Below are positions 5,441 to 41,165 of a stretch of DNA of 64,000 nt, one piece after another. The notes under the pieces were generated by a model, which was given only the letters and a program-made list of their open reading frames with translations, searched no databases and was not told where the DNA came from. The position numbers and the translations under genes were made by a program. Origin of the DNA: Meridianimarinicoccus sp. MJW13 (GTDB lineage Bacteria; Pseudomonadota; Alphaproteobacteria; Rhodobacterales; Rhodobacteraceae); the NCBI RefSeq assembly GCF_014901205.1, contig NZ_JACNMU010000002.1:186001-250000 (forward strand), in the 5' to 3' direction. Each line of letters starts with the position of its first letter. Position 1 is the first letter of the stretch.

Positions 5441-5983
5441 TCAGTCCGGGCTGCCGGTCTCGACCAGCCGTTTCAGGCGGCTCAGACCCTGATCCAGTTC
5501 GTCCGCGACCCAGTCATCCACCACCAGTCCCATCCAGCGCGACACCGGGTTGAACCCGGCATCGGTGGAAAACGACCAGGTGACACGGGTGCCGGTCCCG
5601 TCCGGGTCCAGCAGGAACGACGCGGTCGCAAGCTCCCAGTCTCCGAATTCCATCGATCGCGCCACCCATCGGTTGTCGGTGATCGAGGTGATGACCTGCA
5701 CGCCGTCACCAAGGGTCGGATTGTCCGAGATCCAGCTCATCCGCGCGCCGATCCCGGCCTCCGGCCCTTCAAAGATCACCTGGGCATCGGGATTGCGCGC
5801 GATCCAGGGCGACCATTCCGCCGTGGCCGTGTGCGAATCCAGATGCGGGAATACGCGTTCGGGCGGCGCGTCGATGGTGATGGACCGGCTGACCGAGATC
5901 TGATGCGGCAAGGCGAAGGCGGCCAGCGCCAGAATGGCCACCAGGGCGGCCAGTCCGGCGAGCGCGCGGATCATCCAAGTCAT
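5441..5983 (-). CDS. SRPBCC family protein with N-terminal membrane anchor
   Basis: A 180-residue protein with one hydrophobic helix at residues 2-25, then an SRPBCC/START-like fold beginning at ISVSRSITIDAPPERVFPHL. This is the typical first strand and helix of polyketide-cyclase/dehydrase-like proteins. Such folds bind hydrophobic ligands in a deep cavity; the ligand is unknown. The start at 5983 is set by the methionine at MTWMIRALAG preceded by a strong GAGGAGG site; the open frame further upstream lacks such a signal. The helix could be a signal anchor, placing the domain in the periplasm. It is convergent with asd and downstream of carbonic anhydrase on the same strand. Confidence 0.8.
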   Translation of the reverse strand: MTWMIRALAGLAALVAILALAAFALPHQISVSRSITIDAPPERVFPHLDSHTATAEWSPWIARNPDAQVIFEGPEAGIGARMSWISDNPTLGDGVQVITSITDNRWVARSMEFGDWELATASFLLDPDGTGTRVTWSFSTDAGFNPVSRWMGLVVDDWVADELDQGLSRLKRLVETGSPD

Positions 5984-6071
5984 CACCGGCCTCCTCGGGT
6001 CGGGTCGGATCAGCGCCGGCATCCTGCCGGAAGTGTCCGACCGGGCGCGGAACAACCCGCGCCCGATGGGT

Positions 6072-6749
6072 CTACAAGCTGATGAACTGGTGCGAGTCCG
6101 GGTCCAGCATCTGCAAGTCGCCGTTGGCAATATTCACCCACATGCCGTGCAGCGCCAGTTGATCGGCCTCCACGGCCTCGCGCACGAAGGGGAAGGTCAT
6201 CAGGTTCTCCAGCGAGATCACCACGGCCTGCTTTTCCAGGGCTGTGGATTGCTCGTCCCTGTCGGCGATGTCCTTCACGCGCTCGTATCCGGGGCGCAGG
6301 ATGTCGAGCCACCGGCCGACAAAGCTGTTTGGGTCGTCCAGTTCCGGCGCGTTGCCGCTGCACATCTCAAGGCATCCCGCCGCGCCGCCGCACAGGGAAT
6401 GCCCCATGATCAGCAGGTTGGTGATCTTCAGGTTGCGCACCGCGTATTCCAGCGCCGCCGAGGTGCCGTGATGATCGGTGTCGGGCGCATAAGGCGGCAC
6501 AAGGTTGGCGATGTTGCGATGCATGAAGAATTCGCCCGGCCCGGCGCCGAAGACCGATGTCACGTGCACCCGGCTGTCACAGCAGGAAATCACCATGCAG
6601 CGCGGCCGTTGACCTTCCTCTGCCAAACGGCGGTACCAAATCTTGTTTTCTGCGTGGTCGGTGGCTTTCCAGCCTCTGTACCGTTGCAGCAAGTAGCCCG
6701 GGAGGGGCCGGAGGGTCAGCGGGTGCGTGAGCGCGGTGTTCTTTTCCAT
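6072..6749 (-). CDS. Beta-class carbonic anhydrase
   Basis: Interconverts CO2 and bicarbonate in the cytoplasm. The 225-residue protein carries the beta-class zinc site: Cys57 with the Asp58-Arg60 dyad in CCDSR, His117 and Cys120 in GHSLCGG. The length and the fold segment from FMHRNIAN to GTSAALEYAV match bacterial Can/CynT-like enzymes. The ATG at 6747-6749 precedes the family-typical N-terminus, where a helix leads into GYLLQRYRGW. The enzyme is divergent from the HPt-like gene. A bicarbonate link with the SulP transporter 4 kb away is possible but not supported by operon structure. Confidence 0.95.
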   Translation of the reverse strand: MEKNTALTHPLTLRPLPGYLLQRYRGWKATDHAENKIWYRRLAEEGQRPRCMVISCCDSRVHVTSVFGAGPGEFFMHRNIANLVPPYAPDTDHHGTSAALEYAVRNLKITNLLIMGHSLCGGAAGCLEMCSGNAPELDDPNSFVGRWLDILRPGYERVKDIADRDEQSTALEKQAVVISLENLMTFPFVREAVEADQLALHGMWVNIANGDLQMLDPDSHQFISL

Positions 6750-6876
6750 AAGTCTCGAAACTAGTGCGGAGTGAATTCAATTTCGAGGTACTTCGGGCTG
6801 GAAAAGCAAGGTTTTTTTGGCAGGAACAGGGGTATGTGGAAATTCACCGGTGGGGGCCGGAATTGGGTGGGGTATC

Positions 6877-7251
6877 GTGCGGGTACATTTGCGTTTTTTC
6901 GAGTCCGAGGATCTGGATCCCGAAACTCTGGTGGCGTGTTTCAGCCAGGCGCGAGGCTGTTCGCGCGATCGTGCGGCGGTGGATCTGGTCGAATCGCTGG
7001 CGTCTCGCATGGCGGGCCTTGCGCGGGCGTTGGCCGATACGGACCTGATGGCGCTGGAGGATCATGCCAAACGGCTGCAGGCCACGGCCTCGGCGGCGGG
7101 GCTGACCCGGTTGCAGCGCGCGGCGCGGGCGGTGGCCCATTGCGCGGCGGTGAAGGATCATGTGGCGCTGGCGGCCACCGTGGCCCGCTGCCGCCGTCTG
7201 GGCGAGGCGACGATCACCCTTCTGTGGACCGCCGGCCAGGAGGTCGAGTGA
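6877..7251 (+). CDS. Small HPt-like helical protein
   Basis: A predicted 124-residue, all-helical protein. The stretch from ALEDHAKRLQATASAAGL to the end looks like a histidine phosphotransfer (HPt) domain: a histidine on one helix, small residues after it, then two further helices with an arginine-rich turn. In genuine HPt domains the motif is HxLKGxA; here it reads HAKRLQATA, so the match is partial. I prefer the GTG at 6877 after a GGGGTGGGG stretch; an in-frame TTG at 6817 would add 20 residues without family character. It lies 64 bases upstream of the aminopeptidase gene on the same strand. No kinase or response regulator is nearby, so a signalling role is inference. Confidence 0.6.
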   Translation: MRVHLRFFESEDLDPETLVACFSQARGCSRDRAAVDLVESLASRMAGLARALADTDLMALEDHAKRLQATASAAGLTRLQRAARAVAHCAAVKDHVALAATVARCRRLGEATITLLWTAGQEVE

Positions 7252-7315
7252 TCCGGCTTGCAGGCGCGTCCGAACGGCGTAGGGTGCTGGGATCGGATCA
7301 CAGGACAGGCCGCCC

Positions 7316-8707
7316 ATGGAACTCGCATTTGCCCAAGACGCCGACGCGGCGCGCCCCCTTCACCTTGTCGGCAGCGATGATCTGGAACGCTGGCTGGGCG
7401 ATCAGCCAGAGACCACCCGCACCTGGCTGACCGCTGTGGGCTTCACGGCCGAACTGGGGCAGGTGGTGGCCGTGCCCGGTGCCGATGGCAGTTGTAGCAG
7501 CGCGGTCTTTGGCTTGGGGACGGCGCAGGCGCGGGCGCGCGGGCGGTTCTGGCTGGGCCGGGCGCCGGCTGCGCTGCCGGCAGGCGACTGGGCGCTTGTG
7601 GGCGATCTGGCCCCCGAAGACGCCGCCGAGGCGGCTCTGGCCTGGTTGCTGGCGGGCTATCGCTTCACGCGTTATTCGGGCACCCCGGCGATCACGCCGC
7701 GCCTTGTGGTGCCCAAAGGCGTCGATGGCGACCGCATTCAGGCCATCGCGGCGGGCGAGGCGCTGACCCGCGACCTGATCAACACGCCCGCGTCGGACAT
7801 GGGGCCGGCGGAACTGGAACAGGCTGCCTTCGATGTGGCAGCCGAATTTGGCGCGGCAATGTCGGTCACCACGGGCGACGATCTGCTGGAGGCCAATTTC
7901 CCGATGATCCACGCGGTCGGCCGTGCCTCGCCGCGCGCGCCGCGCCTGATCGACATGCGCTGGGGCAGCGACGGCCCCCGGCTGACGCTGGTCGGCAAGG
8001 GGGTCTGTTTCGACACCGGCGGTCTGAACCTGAAGTCCGGCGCCTCGATGGGCCTGATGAAGAAGGACATGGGCGGCGCCGCGGCGGTGCTGGGGCTGGC
8101 CCGGATGATCATGGCCCTGGATCTGCCGGTGCAGTTGCGGGTGCTGATCCCGGCGGTGGAAAACGCTGTCAGCGGCGCGTCGTTCCGGCCGCAGGACATC
8201 CTGACCTCGCGCAAGGGTCTGACGGTCGAGATCAACAACACCGATGCCGAGGGCCGGCTGGTTCTTGCCGATGCGCTGGCGCTGGCGGACGAGGAAAAAC
8301 CGGATCTTCTGATCTCGATGGCGACGCTGACGGGCGCGGCGCGGGTGGCTGTCGGCCCCGATATCGCGCCCTTCTTCACCCGCGACGATGCCGCAGCGAC
8401 AACCCTTGCGTCCGGCGCAGCGCAGGTCCGCGATCCGGTCTGGCGGTTGCCCCTGCATGACCCTTACGAGCCAATGATTGAACCGGGTGTGGCCGATCTG
8501 GACAACGCCCCCAAGGGCGGGTTTGCCGGGGCCACCACCGCCGCGCTGTTCCTGCACCGCTTTGTCGAAGACGCGCTGCGCTACGTGCATTTCGACATCT
8601 ACGGCTGGCAGCCTGTGGCCGCGCCCTCGCGGCCCAAAGGCGGGGTCGGGCAGGGCACACGGGCCGTGCTGGCGGCGCTGCCAAGCCTGCTTGACCTTCC
8701 CGCGTGA
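7316..8707 (+). CDS. M17 family leucyl aminopeptidase
   Basis: A cytosolic two-metal aminopeptidase that removes N-terminal residues from peptides. The 463-residue protein has the family metal and catalytic residues: Lys228 and Asp233 in GKGVCFDTGG, Lys240, Asp251, and the signature NTDAEGRL (308-315) with Asp310, Glu312 and the catalytic Arg314. The N-terminal 150 residues are the less conserved regulatory domain. The ATG follows a GGACAGG-like site. The NlpC/P60 gene begins 35 bases downstream, so the two hydrolases are likely co-transcribed and may act on cell-wall peptides in sequence; that coupling is inferred. Confidence 0.95.
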   Translation: MELAFAQDADAARPLHLVGSDDLERWLGDQPETTRTWLTAVGFTAELGQVVAVPGADGSCSSAVFGLGTAQARARGRFWLGRAPAALPAGDWALVGDLAPEDAAEAALAWLLAGYRFTRYSGTPAITPRLVVPKGVDGDRIQAIAAGEALTRDLINTPASDMGPAELEQAAFDVAAEFGAAMSVTTGDDLLEANFPMIHAVGRASPRAPRLIDMRWGSDGPRLTLVGKGVCFDTGGLNLKSGASMGLMKKDMGGAAAVLGLARMIMALDLPVQLRVLIPAVENAVSGASFRPQDILTSRKGLTVEINNTDAEGRLVLADALALADEEKPDLLISMATLTGAARVAVGPDIAPFFTRDDAAATTLASGAAQVRDPVWRLPLHDPYEPMIEPGVADLDNAPKGGFAGATTAALFLHRFVEDALRYVHFDIYGWQPVAAPSRPKGGVGQGTRAVLAALPSLLDLPA

Positions 8708-20477: not shown

Positions 20478-21875
<1,398 letters not shown>

Positions 21876-34872: not shown

Positions 34873-35865
34873 ATGCCCCTGCCTGACGCAATGCGCGCCG
34901 TGGAGATTTCCCAGCCCGGCGGCCCCGAAGTGCTGCGCACGGTGACGCGGCCGATGCCCGAACCGGGTCCGTCGGACATTCTGATCCGTGTGTCCTGGGC
35001 CGGGGTGAACCGCCCCGATGCCCTGCAACGTGCCGGCGCCTATGCCCCGCCGCCCGGTGCCTCGGATTTGCCGGGGCTGGAAGCGGCGGGGGAGGTCGTG
35101 GCGGTGGGCGCCGAGGTGACCCGCTGGCAGGTGGGCGATCACGTCTGCGCCCTGTTGCCCGGCGGTGGCTATGCCGAATACGTGGCGACACCCGCCGATC
35201 ACGCGCTGCCGGTGCCTGCCGGTCTGACGCTGGATCAGGCCGCCTGCCTGCCCGAGACCTTCTTCACCGTCTGGTCAAACGTCTTCATGCGGGCCGGTCT
35301 GCGCGCGGGCGAGACCCTGCTGGTACACGGCGGGTCCTCGGGCATTGGCACCACGGCGATCCAACTGGCCACGGCCTTTGGCGCGCGGGTGTTCACCACC
35401 GCCGGCACGCCCGAGAAATGCCGCATCTGCGAGCGGCTGGGGGCCGAGCGCGCGATCAACTATCGCGAGGAAGACTTCGTAGAGGTGCTGAAGGCCGACG
35501 GCGGCGCGCATGTGATCCTCGACATGGTGGGCGGCTCATATATTCCGCGCAACATCCGGGCCCTGCGGACCGAGGGGCGGCTGGTACAGATCGCCTTTCT
35601 GGAAGGCCCCAAGGCGGAGTTGAACTTCGCGCAGGTGATGAAGCGGCGGCTGGTCATCACCGGCTCGACCCTGCGGCCGCAAAGCGATGCGGCCAAGGCC
35701 GAGATCGCGCGGCAGCTTGAGGAGAAGGTCTGGCCGCTGCTGGGCAGCGGCGACCTGGGGCCGGTCATGGACAGCGAGTTCGCACTGGACGACGCTGCCG
35801 ATGCGCATGCGCGGATGGAAAGCAGCGCCCATATCGGAAAGATCGTCCTGAAGGTCGCAGGCTGA
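34873..35865 (+). CDS. NAD(P)H-quinone oxidoreductase (zeta-crystallin/PIG3 type)
   Basis: A 330-residue zinc-free medium-chain reductase. The N-terminal GroES-like domain includes SWAGVNRPDALQRAG (the quinone-oxidoreductase signature) and FPGLEAAG-like PGLEAAGEVVAVG. The Rossmann domain has LVHGGSSGIGTTAIQLA (residues about 144-160) for NADPH. The C-terminal part binds the quinone or enal. It follows coq9 by 39 bases and is probably co-transcribed. It ends 4 bases before the convergent TAXI gene. The exact substrate is not known. Confidence 0.92.
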   Translation: MPLPDAMRAVEISQPGGPEVLRTVTRPMPEPGPSDILIRVSWAGVNRPDALQRAGAYAPPPGASDLPGLEAAGEVVAVGAEVTRWQVGDHVCALLPGGGYAEYVATPADHALPVPAGLTLDQAACLPETFFTVWSNVFMRAGLRAGETLLVHGGSSGIGTTAIQLATAFGARVFTTAGTPEKCRICERLGAERAINYREEDFVEVLKADGGAHVILDMVGGSYIPRNIRALRTEGRLVQIAFLEGPKAELNFAQVMKRRLVITGSTLRPQSDAAKAEIARQLEEKVWPLLGSGDLGPVMDSEFALDDAADAHARMESSAHIGKIVLKVAG

Positions 35866-35869
35866 CGCT

Positions 35870-37162
35870 TCAGGCCGCGGCGGCATCCTTCAGCTTGCGA
35901 CGCACAAGATCGATGTGCACCCGCAGGGTATAGGCGTTTTCGCGGTACTTCGACGGCACCTGCACCGATTTGGCTTCCTGTTCGATGGAATCCAGCTGGG
36001 CATACAGTTCTTCACGGCGCGCTTCGGTCATGGCGCCCTCGGCCTCCTGATCGATGGCCACCAACTGGTTGTAGCGGCGGTAGATGCGGGCGCGCATCTG
36101 CCATTCGTACAGGCTGGGCACCATGCGCATCAGGGGCACCAGCAGCACCAGCAGCGGCACCAGAAGCAGGGTGACGCGGGTGATCTGGGCCGCGACCCAA
36201 TAGGGCATGTGCCGGTCCAGATAGCTGGGGCCTTTCTGCAGCAGGGTTTCGGCCTGCGAGTTCATCGGCAGGATGGTGCCCTCGGCCATGGGGAATTCCA
36301 GTTCGGAGCTGAGCAGCACCGGGCCGGAATGGATTTCCTGTGCGGCGCGCACCAGCCGGTCCACCAGCGCCGGGTGCATGTCGCCCTGCGCCACCAGCGT
36401 GGCCATCATGGCGGTCAGGGCGATGCGCTCTTCCGGGATTTCCTTTGCATAGTCCAGGGCCGAGGGCGGGATGTCGGCGGGCCGGACGTAGCCGACCCTG
36501 CGGGTCAGGGCCTCGGTATCGCGCAGCGAACTGATGTTGATGCGCGGATCGGTCAGAAGCGGCGCCAGATAGGGGGCGTCGATGGGCGCCACGAAGATCG
36601 CCACATCCACATCGCCTGCCAGCAGGGCCTCGGCGGCATCGCGCCCGCCGACCGGGTGCAGATCCTCGTAGTGGATCTTCAGCCCCAGTGTCTGCGCGGT
36701 GCTGTCGATGGCGGCGCGGGTGCCGCTGCCGGGCTCGCCCGCCGCAACCCGCAGGTCGGGCCAGTTGTTGGGATCGGCGGCGTCGATGAAATCGCTGCGA
36801 TAGAAGATCAGGAAGGGTTCCAGGAACACCGCGGCAAGCGAGGCAAGCCCGGTGGCCTTGGTGATCGGCACGCCGCCCTGGATCAGTGCCACATCGGCCT
36901 CGCCCCGGGCCAGCAGGCGTGAATTTTCCATCGACCCGGCGGTGTCGAGAATATCAAGGGTGATGCCATCGCGCCCAAGGATCGTGCGGTATTGCTCGGC
37001 GTAGGTATAGTAGCCGCCGCCGGGCCGCCCCGCCGCCATTGTCAGATGATCCGGCGGCACAAGTTCGCGAAGACCCGACAGGGCGATGAAGGCGGCGATC
37101 AGCCCGCCGATCAGGGTCAGCGGCAGCAATAGAGGGCCAAGATTGGACAGGATGCGGCGCAT
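35870..37162 (-). CDS. TAXI family TRAP solute-binding protein with C-terminal membrane helix
   Basis: A 430-residue protein. An N-terminal signal anchor is at about residues 9-31; the TAXI periplasmic binding domain spans about 38-320, with the glycine-rich entry AAGRPGGGYYTYAEQY and the internal repeats DVALIQGG and VDVAIFVAP. A second membrane helix (about 328-348) and a basic, charged cytosolic tail (349-430) follow. TAXI proteins normally feed a TRAP permease with DctQ/DctM parts. None is present in this window, and the C-terminal anchor with tail suggests sensing or signalling instead. Divergent from the CtrA-controlled operon. Confidence 0.88.
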   Translation of the reverse strand: MRRILSNLGPLLLPLTLIGGLIAAFIALSGLRELVPPDHLTMAAGRPGGGYYTYAEQYRTILGRDGITLDILDTAGSMENSRLLARGEADVALIQGGVPITKATGLASLAAVFLEPFLIFYRSDFIDAADPNNWPDLRVAAGEPGSGTRAAIDSTAQTLGLKIHYEDLHPVGGRDAAEALLAGDVDVAIFVAPIDAPYLAPLLTDPRINISSLRDTEALTRRVGYVRPADIPPSALDYAKEIPEERIALTAMMATLVAQGDMHPALVDRLVRAAQEIHSGPVLLSSELEFPMAEGTILPMNSQAETLLQKGPSYLDRHMPYWVAAQITRVTLLLVPLLVLLVPLMRMVPSLYEWQMRARIYRRYNQLVAIDQEAEGAMTEARREELYAQLDSIEQEAKSVQVPSKYRENAYTLRVHIDLVRRKLKDAAAA

Positions 37163-37256
37163 GTCATTCTCCGGTCGGGGGGCGTTCCCTGCCCCTGTTT
37201 ACCCCTAAACGCAGCTGAGCCAAAGAAAACCCCCGGATCGGAGGTCTGGAAAAAAA

Positions 37257-37270
37257 CCATAGCTATATGG
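37257..37270. promoter_or_regulatory. Palindrome CCATA-N4-TATGG
   Basis: A 14-base inverted repeat, 5-bp arms around GCTA, in the AT-rich gap between the TAXI gene and the operon at 37328. It sits 25 bases upstream of the CtrA box. It could be an operator for a divergent regulator or a second promoter element. No regulator is identified. Confidence 0.35.
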
Positions 37271-37294
37271 GGGCATGTCGTGGCTTAGTTGTGG

Positions 37295-37310
37295 TTAACT
37301 ATGCGTTAAC
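37295..37310. promoter_or_regulatory. CtrA-binding box
   Basis: TTAA at 37295-37298 and TTAAC at 37306-37310 are separated by exactly seven bases, the full CtrA consensus TTAA-N7-TTAAC of alphaproteobacteria. It is the only complete match I found in 64 kb of GC-rich DNA and lies 18 bases before the ATG at 37328. The two half sites are parts of a tandem GTTAACTATG repeat (11-base period). CtrA would thus control the operon at 37328-40233, and perhaps the divergent TAXI gene. Confidence 0.75.
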
Positions 37311-37327
37311 TATGGGGAGGGGCCCGT

Positions 37328-38035
37328 ATGTCAGAGACTCCGAAAGCCCGGATATTGTCGGACCTGTTCGCCGGGGCCGGGATGGGCCTGCTTCTGGGCA
37401 CGGTCATGGGGCTGACCACCACTCCGGTTGTTTCGGTGGTGGTGGGCGCCCTGGCGGCTCTTCTGGGCGTGTTCATGGGGCTGGATGGGTCGGGCGACGA
37501 CAGCGGCCGCACGCCGCGTGTCAACGGTGTCCGCATCGGTGCCTTGGGCGCGGCGGCAGTGATCGGATTCGGGCTGGGGCTGTACGTGCGCATCAACAAT
37601 CCGCTGGCGGAATCGCCCGTCGATCAGATGGCCCGCTGGGCCGAGGCGCTGCCCGAGGATCCGACGTTGGCCAAGCAGATGATGCTGTACGAACGGACCG
37701 GCATTTCGCCCGAGGCCTTCACCTATGGCGACACAACCCCGGCCGGGCCGGTGGTGGCGGTGATGAATGAAGAGGCGGTGAAGGCCAAATCGGCGATCCT
37801 GTTCTCGTCGCTCAGCAAGTACGACGCCTGTTCCAAGCTGGACCCGGAAGAATACGGCACCCCGGCGGATGTCTTGGCGCTTTATGCGCGCTCGACCGCC
37901 CCGGCGATGCTGAAGCGGATCAAGGCCGAAATCGAGGCACTGGACCCCGAGATGCAGCCCGCCGCCGTGATCACCGCGCATCTGGTGCTCTGCGCCGTTC
38001 AGGATGCCGAAGATGAAGAGGAGGATGGGCCATGA
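37328..38035 (+). CDS. Unknown three-helix membrane protein, first gene of CtrA-box operon
   Basis: A 235-residue protein that I do not recognise. Hydrophobic helices lie at about residues 12-30, 33-51 and 68-86, separated by a Gly/Asp loop. If the N-terminus (with Lys6/Arg8) is cytoplasmic, the 145-residue C-terminal domain is periplasmic and its two cysteines (Cys168 and one near 222) could form a disulfide. The last residues are very acidic. The stop overlaps the ATG of the secreted protease-like gene (ATGA), so both are translated together. The gene could anchor or modulate the second protein. The CtrA box lies just upstream. Confidence 0.8.
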   Translation: MSETPKARILSDLFAGAGMGLLLGTVMGLTTTPVVSVVVGALAALLGVFMGLDGSGDDSGRTPRVNGVRIGALGAAAVIGFGLGLYVRINNPLAESPVDQMARWAEALPEDPTLAKQMMLYERTGISPEAFTYGDTTPAGPVVAVMNEEAVKAKSAILFSSLSKYDACSKLDPEEYGTPADVLALYARSTAPAMLKRIKAEIEALDPEMQPAAVITAHLVLCAVQDAEDEEEDGP

Positions 38036-40233
38036 TCTGGATGTTGCGAACCGCCGCCCTGGCCCTGACGCTTGTGGCGATGATGGTGCCCCCGGCGCTG
38101 GCCGACAGCCGGCAGTCGGTGGTGCGGGTCAAATGCCTGCTGGCAAACGGCGGCGAGATGAAGGCCACGGGCTTCATCTGGCCCAAGAAGGGCCAGATGG
38201 TCACCGCGCTGCATGCGGTGGCGGGCTGTCAGGAAATCGAAGTCTACAGCCAGAAGGCCAAGCGCAGCACCGTCGCCACCCAGGCCCTGACCGTCGATCT
38301 TGAGGCCGATCTGGCGCTGCTGCAACTGGCAGACGATCTGGGACTTGAGCCGGTTCCTCACGTCGACCGCGAACCCGACCTGTCGCGGCCCTTCATGACC
38401 TGGGGCTATCCGCTGGTGCAGAAGAAGGTGATCGGCCACAAGATCGAATTCGGTCTGGGGCTGGACAGCAACATCACCACCATCGGGCAGGCCTTCGAGG
38501 GTGACGAGATCAAGGAGCTGTTCAAGCACCAGTCCTATCCCGGCAAGGCGACCCAGATCCTGCGGGTGACCAGCACCATCCAGCCCGGCCATTCCGGCGC
38601 CCCGATCTTCGACGAGCGGGGCCATGTGGTGGCCATTGCCGACGGCGGGCTGCTGGGCGGCTTCCGGGGCATCAACTGGTCAATCCCGGCGCATATCTAC
38701 CTGATCAACCTTCCCTATTCCCAGGACCCGATCCCGCAGGAAGCGTCGGATTGGGCTGGCCTGTTCAGCGCGACCCAACCCGGCAAGGCCAAGCCCTCGT
38801 CGGGCGAGGCGGTGTTCGGCGAAGATCCCGTTGCACCCCAGCACGGCGGTGAAGGTCTGGATCCCGCGCCGGCGGCCGAGCCCGAGTACCTGGGCGATCC
38901 CCAGTTCTTCCTGGGCGACGGCAGCGGGCCCTACCTGCTGCGGCAGGTGACGCTGCGCGAGGCGCTGGACTACATGTTCTTCGTGCAGCAGGACAGTTTC
39001 TACGCGACCGAGATTCAGAACCTGATGTGGGATGACGCGCTGCTGGAGGACGTCTGGTTCAACGTCTATCAGGATCCCACCACCGGCGGCACGCTGGCCT
39101 TCCCGTCGTGGGTGACCATCGACTGGCTGCCGGACGGCAATTACATCTGGGCCTACAGCAACGACTACCTGTACCAGATGACCGCCTATTTCCGGCAGGA
39201 AGAGACCTTTGAAAACGCGATGAGCCATATCTATGGCCATTCCCAGTGGATCGACGGCTTCGCGCAATGGTCCGAAAACTGGCCCAGCCAGATGACCGAT
39301 CCGATGATCGACTATGAATGGGAGCACGCGGATTACAGCCGGTCCCACGTCGGGTTTGAAGCCGAAATGAACCGTCAGGCCTTCTTCATGGAGACCAGCA
39401 CGGTGCGCGGCAGCGCCTTCCTTGGGGCCTCGTCACGCGCCCCCTATCCCGACGCCGGCCCGGCACAGCACGAACAGTTCAACGCCTTGGTGATGGAGGC
39501 CGGGATGGTCTACCTGACCAGCCTTGTCGATCTGCAGGACTGGGCGTGGGACTATGATCGCAGGTATCTGGAACGGCAGGGCATCGGCGAGGGCACGGTT
39601 GTCGGCTTTGGCAACGACAGCGACCTGACCCTGGTGCGCCAGATGAGCCTGCGGCAGGCGCTGGAGTACATCCGCTACCTGAACGAACATGATCCCTTCA
39701 TCGGCGAGATCGAGAACATGCTCTGGGACGAGTCGCTGAAGGACGAGATCTGGTTCAACGTCTATGAAGACGGGCTGACCGGGGCCACCGTCGCCGTGCC
39801 GTCCTGGATGGCGATGGAATGGAACAACGACACCGGGATGCTGTTTGCCTATAACGACACCGACACGCTGGAAATGGCGGTGGCGGTGCTGCCTGGCGAC
39901 AGTTTCGACGGCGCATTGGAACAGTTGTCACATCACGTCACGGACCTGCACGACTGGGCCGAGTGGTACGAGGCCAGCCCGCGGGACTTCCAGTGGGACT
40001 ACTTCACGCCGGATGATCAATACGCGGTTTATACCGGCTTCTACTATGGCCAGGACAATGCCACCGGCCGTGACGGGGACATGCTGATGCATCTGGCGGT
40101 GCTGAATGACGTCTTCCTGGGAACAACCGTATTCATGACACCGCTGGGCGAAGAACCGGCCGAGGAAGTGGTGCTTGAGGCCATGATGATGGAGATATCG
40201 GCCCGCTACCTGTCGGCTTTCGCCTCGTTCTGA
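38032..40233 (+). CDS. Secreted trypsin-like protein with two copies of an unknown domain
   Basis: A 733-residue exported protein. A signal peptide ends about residue 25 (ALADS). The trypsin-like domain (26-230) has His61 in TALHAVAG, Asp93 in EADLALL and Ser188 in GHSGAP, so it looks active. A Pro-rich linker (245-285) follows. Residues about 300-500 and 532-730 are two diverged copies of one domain: RQVTLREALDY / RQMSLRQALEY, then EIQNLMWDDALLEDVWFNVY / EIENMLWDESLKDEIWFNVY, offset 232 residues. I know no family for it. It ends overlapping the convergent ABC ATPase gene by 28 bases. Confidence 0.85.
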   Translation: MIWMLRTAALALTLVAMMVPPALADSRQSVVRVKCLLANGGEMKATGFIWPKKGQMVTALHAVAGCQEIEVYSQKAKRSTVATQALTVDLEADLALLQLADDLGLEPVPHVDREPDLSRPFMTWGYPLVQKKVIGHKIEFGLGLDSNITTIGQAFEGDEIKELFKHQSYPGKATQILRVTSTIQPGHSGAPIFDERGHVVAIADGGLLGGFRGINWSIPAHIYLINLPYSQDPIPQEASDWAGLFSATQPGKAKPSSGEAVFGEDPVAPQHGGEGLDPAPAAEPEYLGDPQFFLGDGSGPYLLRQVTLREALDYMFFVQQDSFYATEIQNLMWDDALLEDVWFNVYQDPTTGGTLAFPSWVTIDWLPDGNYIWAYSNDYLYQMTAYFRQEETFENAMSHIYGHSQWIDGFAQWSENWPSQMTDPMIDYEWEHADYSRSHVGFEAEMNRQAFFMETSTVRGSAFLGASSRAPYPDAGPAQHEQFNALVMEAGMVYLTSLVDLQDWAWDYDRRYLERQGIGEGTVVGFGNDSDLTLVRQMSLRQALEYIRYLNEHDPFIGEIENMLWDESLKDEIWFNVYEDGLTGATVAVPSWMAMEWNNDTGMLFAYNDTDTLEMAVAVLPGDSFDGALEQLSHHVTDLHDWAEWYEASPRDFQWDYFTPDDQYAVYTGFYYGQDNATGRDGDMLMHLAVLNDVFLGTTVFMTPLGEEPAEEVVLEAMMMEISARYLSAFASF

Positions 40234-41165
40234 GTCCGCGAGTGGGTTAGCGCAAGGAACACGTCTTCCAGATCGGGCTCCTCGGTGGCCACGTCGCGCA
40301 GGGTGATGCCGGCGTCGCGCACCCGGTCCAGAATTGCACCGGGCGAGGTTTCTGAGCGCGAATAGGCAAAGGCCAGCGTGCCGCCGGGCCGCTGTGTGGC
40401 GGTGACGCCGGCGATCTCGGGCAACGGTCCCTGCGGGGCGGTTTCCGGGGTGATGACAAGGGTCTTGGCATCCAGCCGGGCCAGCAGGTTGGCGGTGCTG
40501 TCCTGCACGATCTTCTCGCCGTGATTGACGATGGCGATCTCGTCACACATCTCTTGCGCTTCTTCCAGGTAGTGGGTGGTCAGGATGATGGTCATGCCGT
40601 CGTCGTTCAACTTGCGCACGTTGCGCCACAGCATCTGCCGCAACTCGATATCGACCCCGGCGGTGGGTTCGTCCAGTACCAGCACATGCGGATGATGCAC
40701 CAGCGCCTTGCCCAGCAGCAACCGCCGCCGCATCCCGCCCGACAGCGACCGGGCATAGGCATCGGCCTTGTCCGACAGGCCGACCATGGCCAGGATCTCG
40801 TCGGTGCGCCGCTGCGACCGGGGAATGCCGTACAGCCCTGCCTGCACCTCCATCGCACCGCGCGGCGAGAAGAACGGATCGAGGTTCAGCTCCTGCGGCA
40901 TGACGCCGATGGCAGCGCGCGACTGGCGCGGGTTCACATCCTGATCGAAGCCCCAGATCGACACTTGCCCTGCGGTCTTGTTGACCAGCCCGGCAAGAAT
41001 GTTGATGAGGGTCGATTTGCCCGCCCCGTTCGGCCCCAGAAGCCCGAAGATGGACCCTTGCGGAATGGTCAGGTCGATGCCCTTCAGCGCCTCTTTCGCC
41101 GGGGAATTGCCCTGCGCGGCATAGGTTTTGGTCAGGCCGGTGATCTCGATGGCGTTGCGGGACAT
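40206..41165 (-). CDS. ABC transporter ATP-binding protein (multidrug/NodI-like)
   Basis: A 319-residue ATPase of the CcmA/drug-exporter group. Walker A is GPNGAGKS (44-51), the signature is LSGGMRRRLL, Walker B is VLVLDEPTAG and the H-loop TTHYLEEAQEM; the final 80 residues form the extra C-terminal domain of DrrA/NodI-type proteins. Such ATPases normally sit next to their ABC-2 permease gene, but none is present on either side: downstream is the overlapping protease-like gene, upstream a zinc-finger gene. It may pair with a permease elsewhere. Start at an ATG with the ribosome site GGAGCC nearby. Confidence 0.9.
   Translation of the reverse strand: MSRNAIEITGLTKTYAAQGNSPAKEALKGIDLTIPQGSIFGLLGPNGAGKSTLINILAGLVNKTAGQVSIWGFDQDVNPRQSRAAIGVMPQELNLDPFFSPRGAMEVQAGLYGIPRSQRRTDEILAMVGLSDKADAYARSLSGGMRRRLLLGKALVHHPHVLVLDEPTAGVDIELRQMLWRNVRKLNDDGMTIILTTHYLEEAQEMCDEIAIVNHGEKIVQDSTANLLARLDAKTLVITPETAPQGPLPEIAGVTATQRPGGTLAFAYSRSETSPGAILDRVRDAGITLRDVATEEPDLEDVFLALTHSRTQNEAKADR

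Follow-up and report, generated by a model that had tools for sequence, protein, structure and literature searches.

Features of the Locus

We analysed a stretch of 64,000 nucleotides from Meridianimarinicoccus sp. MJW13 (contig NZ_JACNMU010000002.1, positions 186,001 to 250,000), hereafter the window. Our subject is a pair of adjacent genes in it, encoding a membrane protein (gene 1) and a trypsin-like exported protease (gene 2), together with a candidate operator for the cell-cycle regulator CtrA that lies immediately upstream. The features are the following (window coordinates):

37285-37310, plus strand: candidate CtrA operator with three half-sites (TTAG at 37285, TTAAC at 37295, TTAAC at 37306), 10 and 11 bases apart
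37315-37321, plus strand: likely Shine-Dalgarno sequence GGGAGGG (by eye), with a G-rich stretch likewise placed in the two congeners that have the pair
37328-38035, plus strand: gene 1, a 235-residue membrane protein, ATG at 37328
38032-40233, plus strand: gene 2, a 733-residue trypsin-like exported protease in which a PsbP/Mog1-like domain occurs twice
38164-38637, plus strand: Trypsin_2 domain of gene 2 (residues 45-202)
38923-39591, plus strand: C-terminal domain of gene 2, copy 1
39613-40230, plus strand: C-terminal domain of gene 2, copy 2 (the copy that was modelled)

The two reading frames share 4 bases, in agreement with a sequence-only reading of this DNA that had described a two-gene operon with overlapping stop and start. 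Judging from the comparisons below, gene 1 and gene 2 are a genuine but rare cassette, which falls among the membrane-associated trypsin-like envelope proteases, a kind already known. In the literature searched, judged by titles and the beginnings of abstracts, there was no description of this particular pair.

Architecture of Gene 2

The N-terminus of gene 2 looks, by eye, like a signal peptide, and the following region matched Trypsin_2 (PF13365) with 64.3 bits (cut-off 27.6; E = 2.7e-17). A score above the curated cut-off and a His-Asp-Ser triad (His61, Asp93, Ser188), intact at all nine loci at which we found the pair, together place gene 2 in this family. The score and the signal-peptide-like start bear out the earlier description of gene 2 as an exported trypsin-like protein.

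Gene 2 resembles the HtrA/DegP/DegS proteases (TIGR02037, TIGR02038) in being an exported trypsin-like serine protease with the same order of triad residues, but its scores (31.6 bits against a cut-off of 416.2, and 12.1 against 422.95, respectively) leave it outside both models, and no PDZ domain was found among its Pfam matches up to E = 1. The best NCBIfam match of the protease domain (E = 3.4e-11) was MarP (NF033740), the membrane-anchored acid-resistance protease of mycobacteria, which is likewise trypsin-like, periplasmic and tied to the membrane; at 42.8 bits, however, gene 2 falls well below the family cut-off of 250. Both the HtrA and the MarP models align with the protease part only. 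The membrane helices of MarP sit in the same chain as the protease, whereas in the present case a gene of its own, without relatives in Pfam, encodes the membrane part.

The C-terminal region of gene 2 consists of a duplicated domain of about 210 residues per copy (27% identity between copies; BLASTP E = 2.8e-29 within a six-sequence database). No Pfam model covers this domain, the PsbP, Mog1, DcrB and LpqN families giving no match at E up to 1, and its profile found no sequence match in the PDB. Copy 2 nevertheless gave a good structural model (mean predicted local distance difference test score, pLDDT, 89.6; predicted template modelling score 0.85), which in Foldseek (threshold E up to 0.001) retrieved 15 chains at E values of 7.0e-5 to 3.8e-4: seven named PsbP, five that are chains P of photosystem II complexes, two of BT_1490 and one of an NDH-PSI complex. 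In a second structural comparison the model aligned with cyanobacterial PsbP (2xb3) at Z = 10.0, with a root-mean-square deviation of 3.9 Å over 143 residues and 11% identity, while BT_1490, LpqN, Mog1p and Tsi3 matched at lower Z. The likeness extends over about model residues 46-204, the first 45 or so residues lying outside most of the best matches.

The domain thus appears to have the fold of the PsbP/Mog1/DcrB/LpqN group. Since no Pfam model covers it and yet it models as PsbP/Mog1-like, its novelty lies in the sequence and not in the fold, and the "novel domain" of the sequence-only reading stands at the former level only. Unlike members of the PsbP/Mog1 group, it is duplicated and fused to a protease, in the position that PDZ domains occupy in HtrA proteases; compared with HtrA, gene 2 therefore has PsbP/Mog1-like modules instead of PDZ, plus a membrane partner encoded separately.

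Another protease-like gene (open frame of 538 residues), probably DegP-like, lies on the minus strand of the window, where positions 21060-21359 weakly match residues 149-245 of gene 2 (E = 2.9e-5).

The Membrane Protein Encoded by Gene 1

Hydropathy analysis of gene 1 gave three hydrophobic segments, at about residues 9-31, 34-52 and 65-85. The N-terminus and the loop that precedes the third segment both contain basic residues, and the positive-inside rule therefore puts them on the cytoplasmic side; with this N-in topology, the part after about residue 88 probably faces the periplasm. It contains the two cysteines of the protein, Cys168 and Cys222, whose columns are occupied at all nine loci. 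The three helices and the probable periplasmic domain with two cysteines, proposed earlier, are consistent with these data. All three segments exceeded the hydropathy threshold in eight of nine homologues.

No Pfam or NCBIfam model reached its cut-off with gene 1, and a PDB sequence search with its profile gave chance-like matches alone (best E = 0.16). Overall, of the checks that had been suggested, the family searches with both proteins found a known family for the protease part of gene 2 only (Trypsin_2) and left gene 1 without one, and Foldseek with copy 2 found a PsbP/Mog1-like fold.

One partial relative of gene 1 was detected in genome G1111 (L043:5555-6121), where a protein resembling its N-terminal helices (GASNSPVVGAFLTA) is encoded amid recombinase-like genes and genes of no recognised kind. 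These helices are possibly a membrane module common to the two proteins. The match covered 66 profile positions at E = 3.2e-4, with one stop in the row and no protease gene seen adjoining, and we removed it from the set of paired loci.

Occurrence and Conservation of the Pair

Both genes were found at nine loci: Rhodobacteraceae account for five of them and other alphaproteobacterial families for three, and the ninth lies outside the class. These are the window itself, the congeneric metagenome-assembled genomes HKST-UBA100 (G001, locus L039) and HKST-UBA101 (G005, locus L040), both Rhodobacteraceae, Poseidonocella sp. HB161398 (L041), and G085, G490, G478, G729 and G918; the proteins of L039 and L040 are identical to those of G001:C335 and G005:C86, and each of these two loci was counted once. 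Gene 1 precedes gene 2 in every case, at a spacing of -19 to +1 bases (gene 2 starts were set by eye at the signal peptide; the spacing in G918 was taken from the start of its open reading frame, ORF).

When the whole of gene 2 was used as query, 15 of 61 relatives matched, but outside our genome, G001 and G005 the alignments stopped inside the protease part (to about residue 246). Because such matches reflect mostly the protease, we traced the pair by gene 1 and by the C-terminal domain of gene 2. As a single-sequence query, gene 1 was found in at least 3 of 61 relatives and 2 of 394 family genomes (our genome included in each); with profiles, it was found in at least three of seven genus members and 5 of 385 class genomes (profile A1), and in 4 of 398 phylum genomes (profile A4), G1111 among them. 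These frequencies are lower bounds, as the first search step was heuristic. The C-terminal-domain profile was found in 4 of the 385 class genomes, all within the five that carry gene 1; in the fifth, G490, a protease adjoins gene 1, the C-terminal domain being below threshold. This near-complete co-occurrence implies that the pair behaves as one unit. A single-sequence scan of genome contigs gave no match, and a scan with an alignment gave three, L039 and L040 among them.

Such strict pairing, with reading frames that overlap or abut, would also be expected if gene 1 were the substrate of the protease and not its anchor. By analogy with DegS, which cleaves RseA, ligand binding by the PsbP/Mog1-like modules would make gene 2 cut the periplasmic part of gene 1 and so send a signal across the membrane. 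The anatomy is the same, namely a membrane protein with a periplasmic part, a periplasmic serine protease and possible sensor modules. On the other hand, the predicted cytoplasmic stretches of gene 1 are short (the N-terminus and a loop at about residues 53-66), Pfam recognised no anti-sigma or DNA-binding part in it, and no regulator gene recurred in the neighbourhoods read by eye, a helix-turn-helix gene lying directly upstream in G490 alone. We consider gene 1 unlikely to be the substrate, and prefer to see it as the partner that docks the protease.

The patchy distribution of the pair is also what one might expect of a defence or conflict module, e.g., an abortive-infection protease held by a membrane partner. 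The protease domain indeed matched defence-linked proteases in PADLOC (best E = 1.3e-12), and in G085 an integrase-like gene (by eye) lies upstream. However, all six PADLOC matches fall within residues 27-209 of gene 2, i.e., the generic trypsin domain, and gene 1 had none. Neither gene matched plasmid sequences, gene 1 had no match in the viral contigs (which were scanned with gene 1 only), the other neighbourhoods contain, by eye, mostly ordinary genes, and exported proteases are unusual for defence. Given that the PADLOC matches are confined to the generic domain and that plasmid homologues, and viral-contig homologues of gene 1, were not found, we rejected a defence role, which seems to us very improbable, and kept to the pair as an envelope protease unit.

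The Box Upstream of Gene 1

The perfect TTAA-N7-TTAAC box at 37295-37310 (TTAACTATGCGTTAAC) is an exact match to the CtrA full site TTAA-N7-TTAA of Caulobacter and Rhodobacterales. Being palindromic, it also reads on the minus strand at 37294-37309, but this is its sole place in the window, as had been claimed; dinucleotide shuffles of the window yielded an expectation of 0.02 perfect boxes. From its end to the ATG at 37328 we counted 17 bases, not the 18 given before. An extra half-site 10 bases upstream of the box forms TTAGTTGTGGTTAAC at 37285-37299; like the duplication within gene 2, it is absent from the sequence-only reading.

Both pair-bearing congeners have a comparable, 6-spaced site: TTAACCTTCCTTAAC in G001, 10 bases from the start codon and 13 from another ATG immediately after it, and TTAGGCTTGGTTAAC in G005, 13 bases from the start codon. 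The motif TTA(A/G)-N6/7-TTAAC is therefore found before the pair in all three, with the perfect N7 form in the window and the N6 form in the other two. Sites with 6-base spacing have been proposed for the R. sphaeroides promoters flgB2p and fliI2p, and mutating either element of flgB2p lowered activity (PMC6180460, in the portion consulted). When random 80-base pieces of the window were searched at both spacings and on both strands, the rate of pieces holding a site with no more than one mismatch was 0.0019; for 128 overlapping pieces of 14 stretches between long ORFs it was 0.023 (own site included in both). TTAR-N6-TTAAC is rare genome-wide, with six matches in the 4.0 Mb of our genome, seven at six places in the 2.7 Mb of G001 and nine at eight places in the 4.0 Mb of G005. 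In 80 bases it would arise by chance about once per 5,600 to 8,300, and perhaps ten times more commonly in AT-richer intergenic DNA.

Several observations weigh against CtrA control. No perfect N7 box is present at the pair in G001 or G005, and at the six pairs outside the genus the best site within 80 bases upstream had three mismatches in eight, so that none of the six carries the box. Genome-wide, the perfect box gave 8 matches at 6 places in our genome vs 5 for a reversed control pattern; because of these figures, the count alone indicates little enrichment. The corresponding numbers were 12 vs 6 in G001 and 12 vs 9 in G005, and for the N6 form 6 vs 15 in our genome, 7 vs 6 in G001 and 9 vs 14 in G005. 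The numbers alone do not prove selection on such sites; the positions, described below, speak more clearly.

It is hence conceivable, though we regard it as the less likely case, that CtrA does not act at the box and that what we see there is an AT-rich promoter element, or a chance arrangement of half-sites kept by descent in one genus. Counts close to or under the reversed control would fit this explanation, as would the spacing of 10 bases between half-sites in two congeners vs 11 in the perfect box of the window, and the lack of boxes outside the genus. What argues for a CtrA site is that half-sites 10-11 bases apart were retained in three of three congeners although, by eye, the sequence further upstream differs, that TTAR-N6-TTAAC is so rare, and that other perfect boxes precede a CckA-like gene and luxI, putative CtrA sites ahead of quorum-sensing genes having been reported for the order (PMC4046655, in the part consulted). 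Our genome, moreover, encodes a clear orthologue of CtrA, which scored 429.5 bits against a cut-off of 350. The CtrA control put forward earlier is thus plausible within the genus, given the orthologue and the half-sites in all three congeners, and finds no support at the six more distant pairs. Because the box is missing in all of the latter, CtrA control does not belong to the cassette in itself.

Other Perfect Boxes in the Genome

Four of the five other perfect boxes face likely start codons at distances of 39-80 bases, unlike the box in the window, at 17. One (L047:1508-1523; C16:100257-100272) precedes a PAS/HisKA kinase gene, by 43 bases if its likely start is taken and by 28 if an earlier possible ATG is used; by coordinates, the frame of this gene ends in a receiver domain, like that of CckA. 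The predicted hybrid kinase is CckA-like, and the location of the box suggests feedback on the phosphorelay. The others precede a gene for an exported-looking protein with no Pfam match (by 39 bases), an MshEN-glycosyltransferase gene (by 44 bases) and a luxI gene that comes after a luxR gene (by 80 bases).

Between these luxR-type and luxI genes, the perfect N7 box is accompanied by a 6-spaced site, TTAACTCTGGTTAAC (L046:1510-1556; C12:298309-298355). CtrA control of quorum sensing is likely at this site, by analogy with Dinoroseobacter: the TTAA-N7-TTAAC consensus was used in D. shibae, and some Rhodobacterales and Rhizobiales were reported to have putative CtrA sites ahead of their quorum-sensing genes (Wang et al., PMC4046655, consulted in part).

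The fifth box is palindromic; it overlaps the end of rpsT, with dnaA a few hundred bases downstream (L045:1504-1520; C12:131453-131469), and could relate to dnaA expression or to the origin.

Proposed Role of the Operon

In Caulobacter, activating CtrA sites lie near -35 while repressing half-sites overlap -10, and in mapped R. sphaeroides promoters 12 to 33 bases separate the transcription start from the start codon (PMC6180460, same portion). Boxes situated 10-17 bases before the start codon, as in the three congeners, would then overlap the region from -10 to the transcription start, which favours repression; their position misfits ordinary activation from the -35 region. By this comparison, repression of the pair appears at least as likely as activation. 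Pointing the other way is R. capsulatus gafA, where the CtrA site coincides with the likely transcription start and mutants of either half-site kept 10-22% of wild-type gene transfer (PMC6363796, consulted in part). Nor did we detect a sigma-70-like promoter at 37100-37400, in a scan that did not include alphaproteobacterial variants.

Taken together, the data suggest to us, with a probability of roughly 0.5, that the operon encodes a two-part envelope protease in which gene 1 would dock or control gene 2, with a putative CtrA-responsive operator in this genus. Gene 1 would be a three-helix inner-membrane protein whose C-terminal part is periplasmic and probably closed by a Cys168-Cys222 disulfide. 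Gene 2 would be an exported trypsin-like serine protease, predicted to be catalytically competent, in which the PsbP/Mog1-like modules replace the PDZ domains of HtrA. These modules most likely serve for binding, whether of a ligand, of a substrate or of gene 1. Gene 1 would then hold the protease at the membrane and control it, so that selected envelope proteins are cleaved. In the genus, the region of the translation start probably contains a CtrA-responsive operator, most simply a brake on transcription that would be lifted as CtrA activity drops. Topology, complex formation, the disulfide, the choice of substrate, and CtrA binding and its sign are inferred.

Some of the structural data do not favour this arrangement. 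The TM-scores of copy 2 in Foldseek were modest (0.36-0.47 by query length, among the top 15), in G490 just two of the three segments of gene 1 passed the hydropathy threshold, and the structural model of gene 1 was poor (mean pLDDT 56.4), for which reason a fold search with it was dropped.

Periplasmic HtrA-type proteases select their substrates largely via PDZ domains. Gene 2 has a PsbP/Mog1-like module in their place and, at every locus found, a membrane protein of its own; if the proposed working is correct, this would be a second way of guiding periplasmic proteolysis from the membrane, with the CtrA-type operator as an example of a sporadic gene pair placed under a cell-cycle or stationary-phase regulator. 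That the pair represents a new form of regulated envelope proteolysis, i.e., a sensor-protease unit made up of the membrane protein and the PsbP/Mog1-domain protease, thinly spread over Pseudomonadota, wired to CtrA in one Rhodobacteraceae genus and timed with the CtrA programme, is a more speculative proposal that we hold to be rather doubtful. The "credible and possibly undescribed module" of the sequence-only reading survives as a two-gene envelope protease unit, undescribed in the titles and abstract openings of the literature searched, but not as one with a lineage-wide link to CtrA, and the cell-cycle role proposed for it is conjectural.

Neighboring Genes

The pair is flanked in the window by these genes:

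34873-35865: ADH-family oxidoreductase gene, upstream of the pair
35870-37162, minus strand: NMT1-like gene, upstream of the pair
40206-41165, minus strand: ABC ATPase gene, downstream of the pair

Beyond the ABC ATPase gene come a transglycosylase gene and then a polA-like gene (the latter by eye). In G001 the pair directly follows the oxidoreductase gene. In G005 it lies between two uncharacterised membrane genes, with a transglycosylase-like gene (by eye) beyond:

L024:3341-5134 and L024:7496-8770: membrane genes for proteins of 597 and 424 residues, flanking the pair in G005

The 424-residue protein weakly matched YLATT, a three-transmembrane family (PF20303), at E = 0.005, below the cut-off. 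Genome G002, of the same genus, had no gene 1 match; there the oxidoreductase gene is followed by the ABC ATPase gene, the 424-residue gene and the polA-like gene (partly by eye). We treat the 424-residue gene as separate because G002 has it in the same slot, before the polA-like gene, without the pair; its recurrence there also led us to reject a larger operon including the 597- and 424-residue genes. The slot that holds the pair is variable within the genus.

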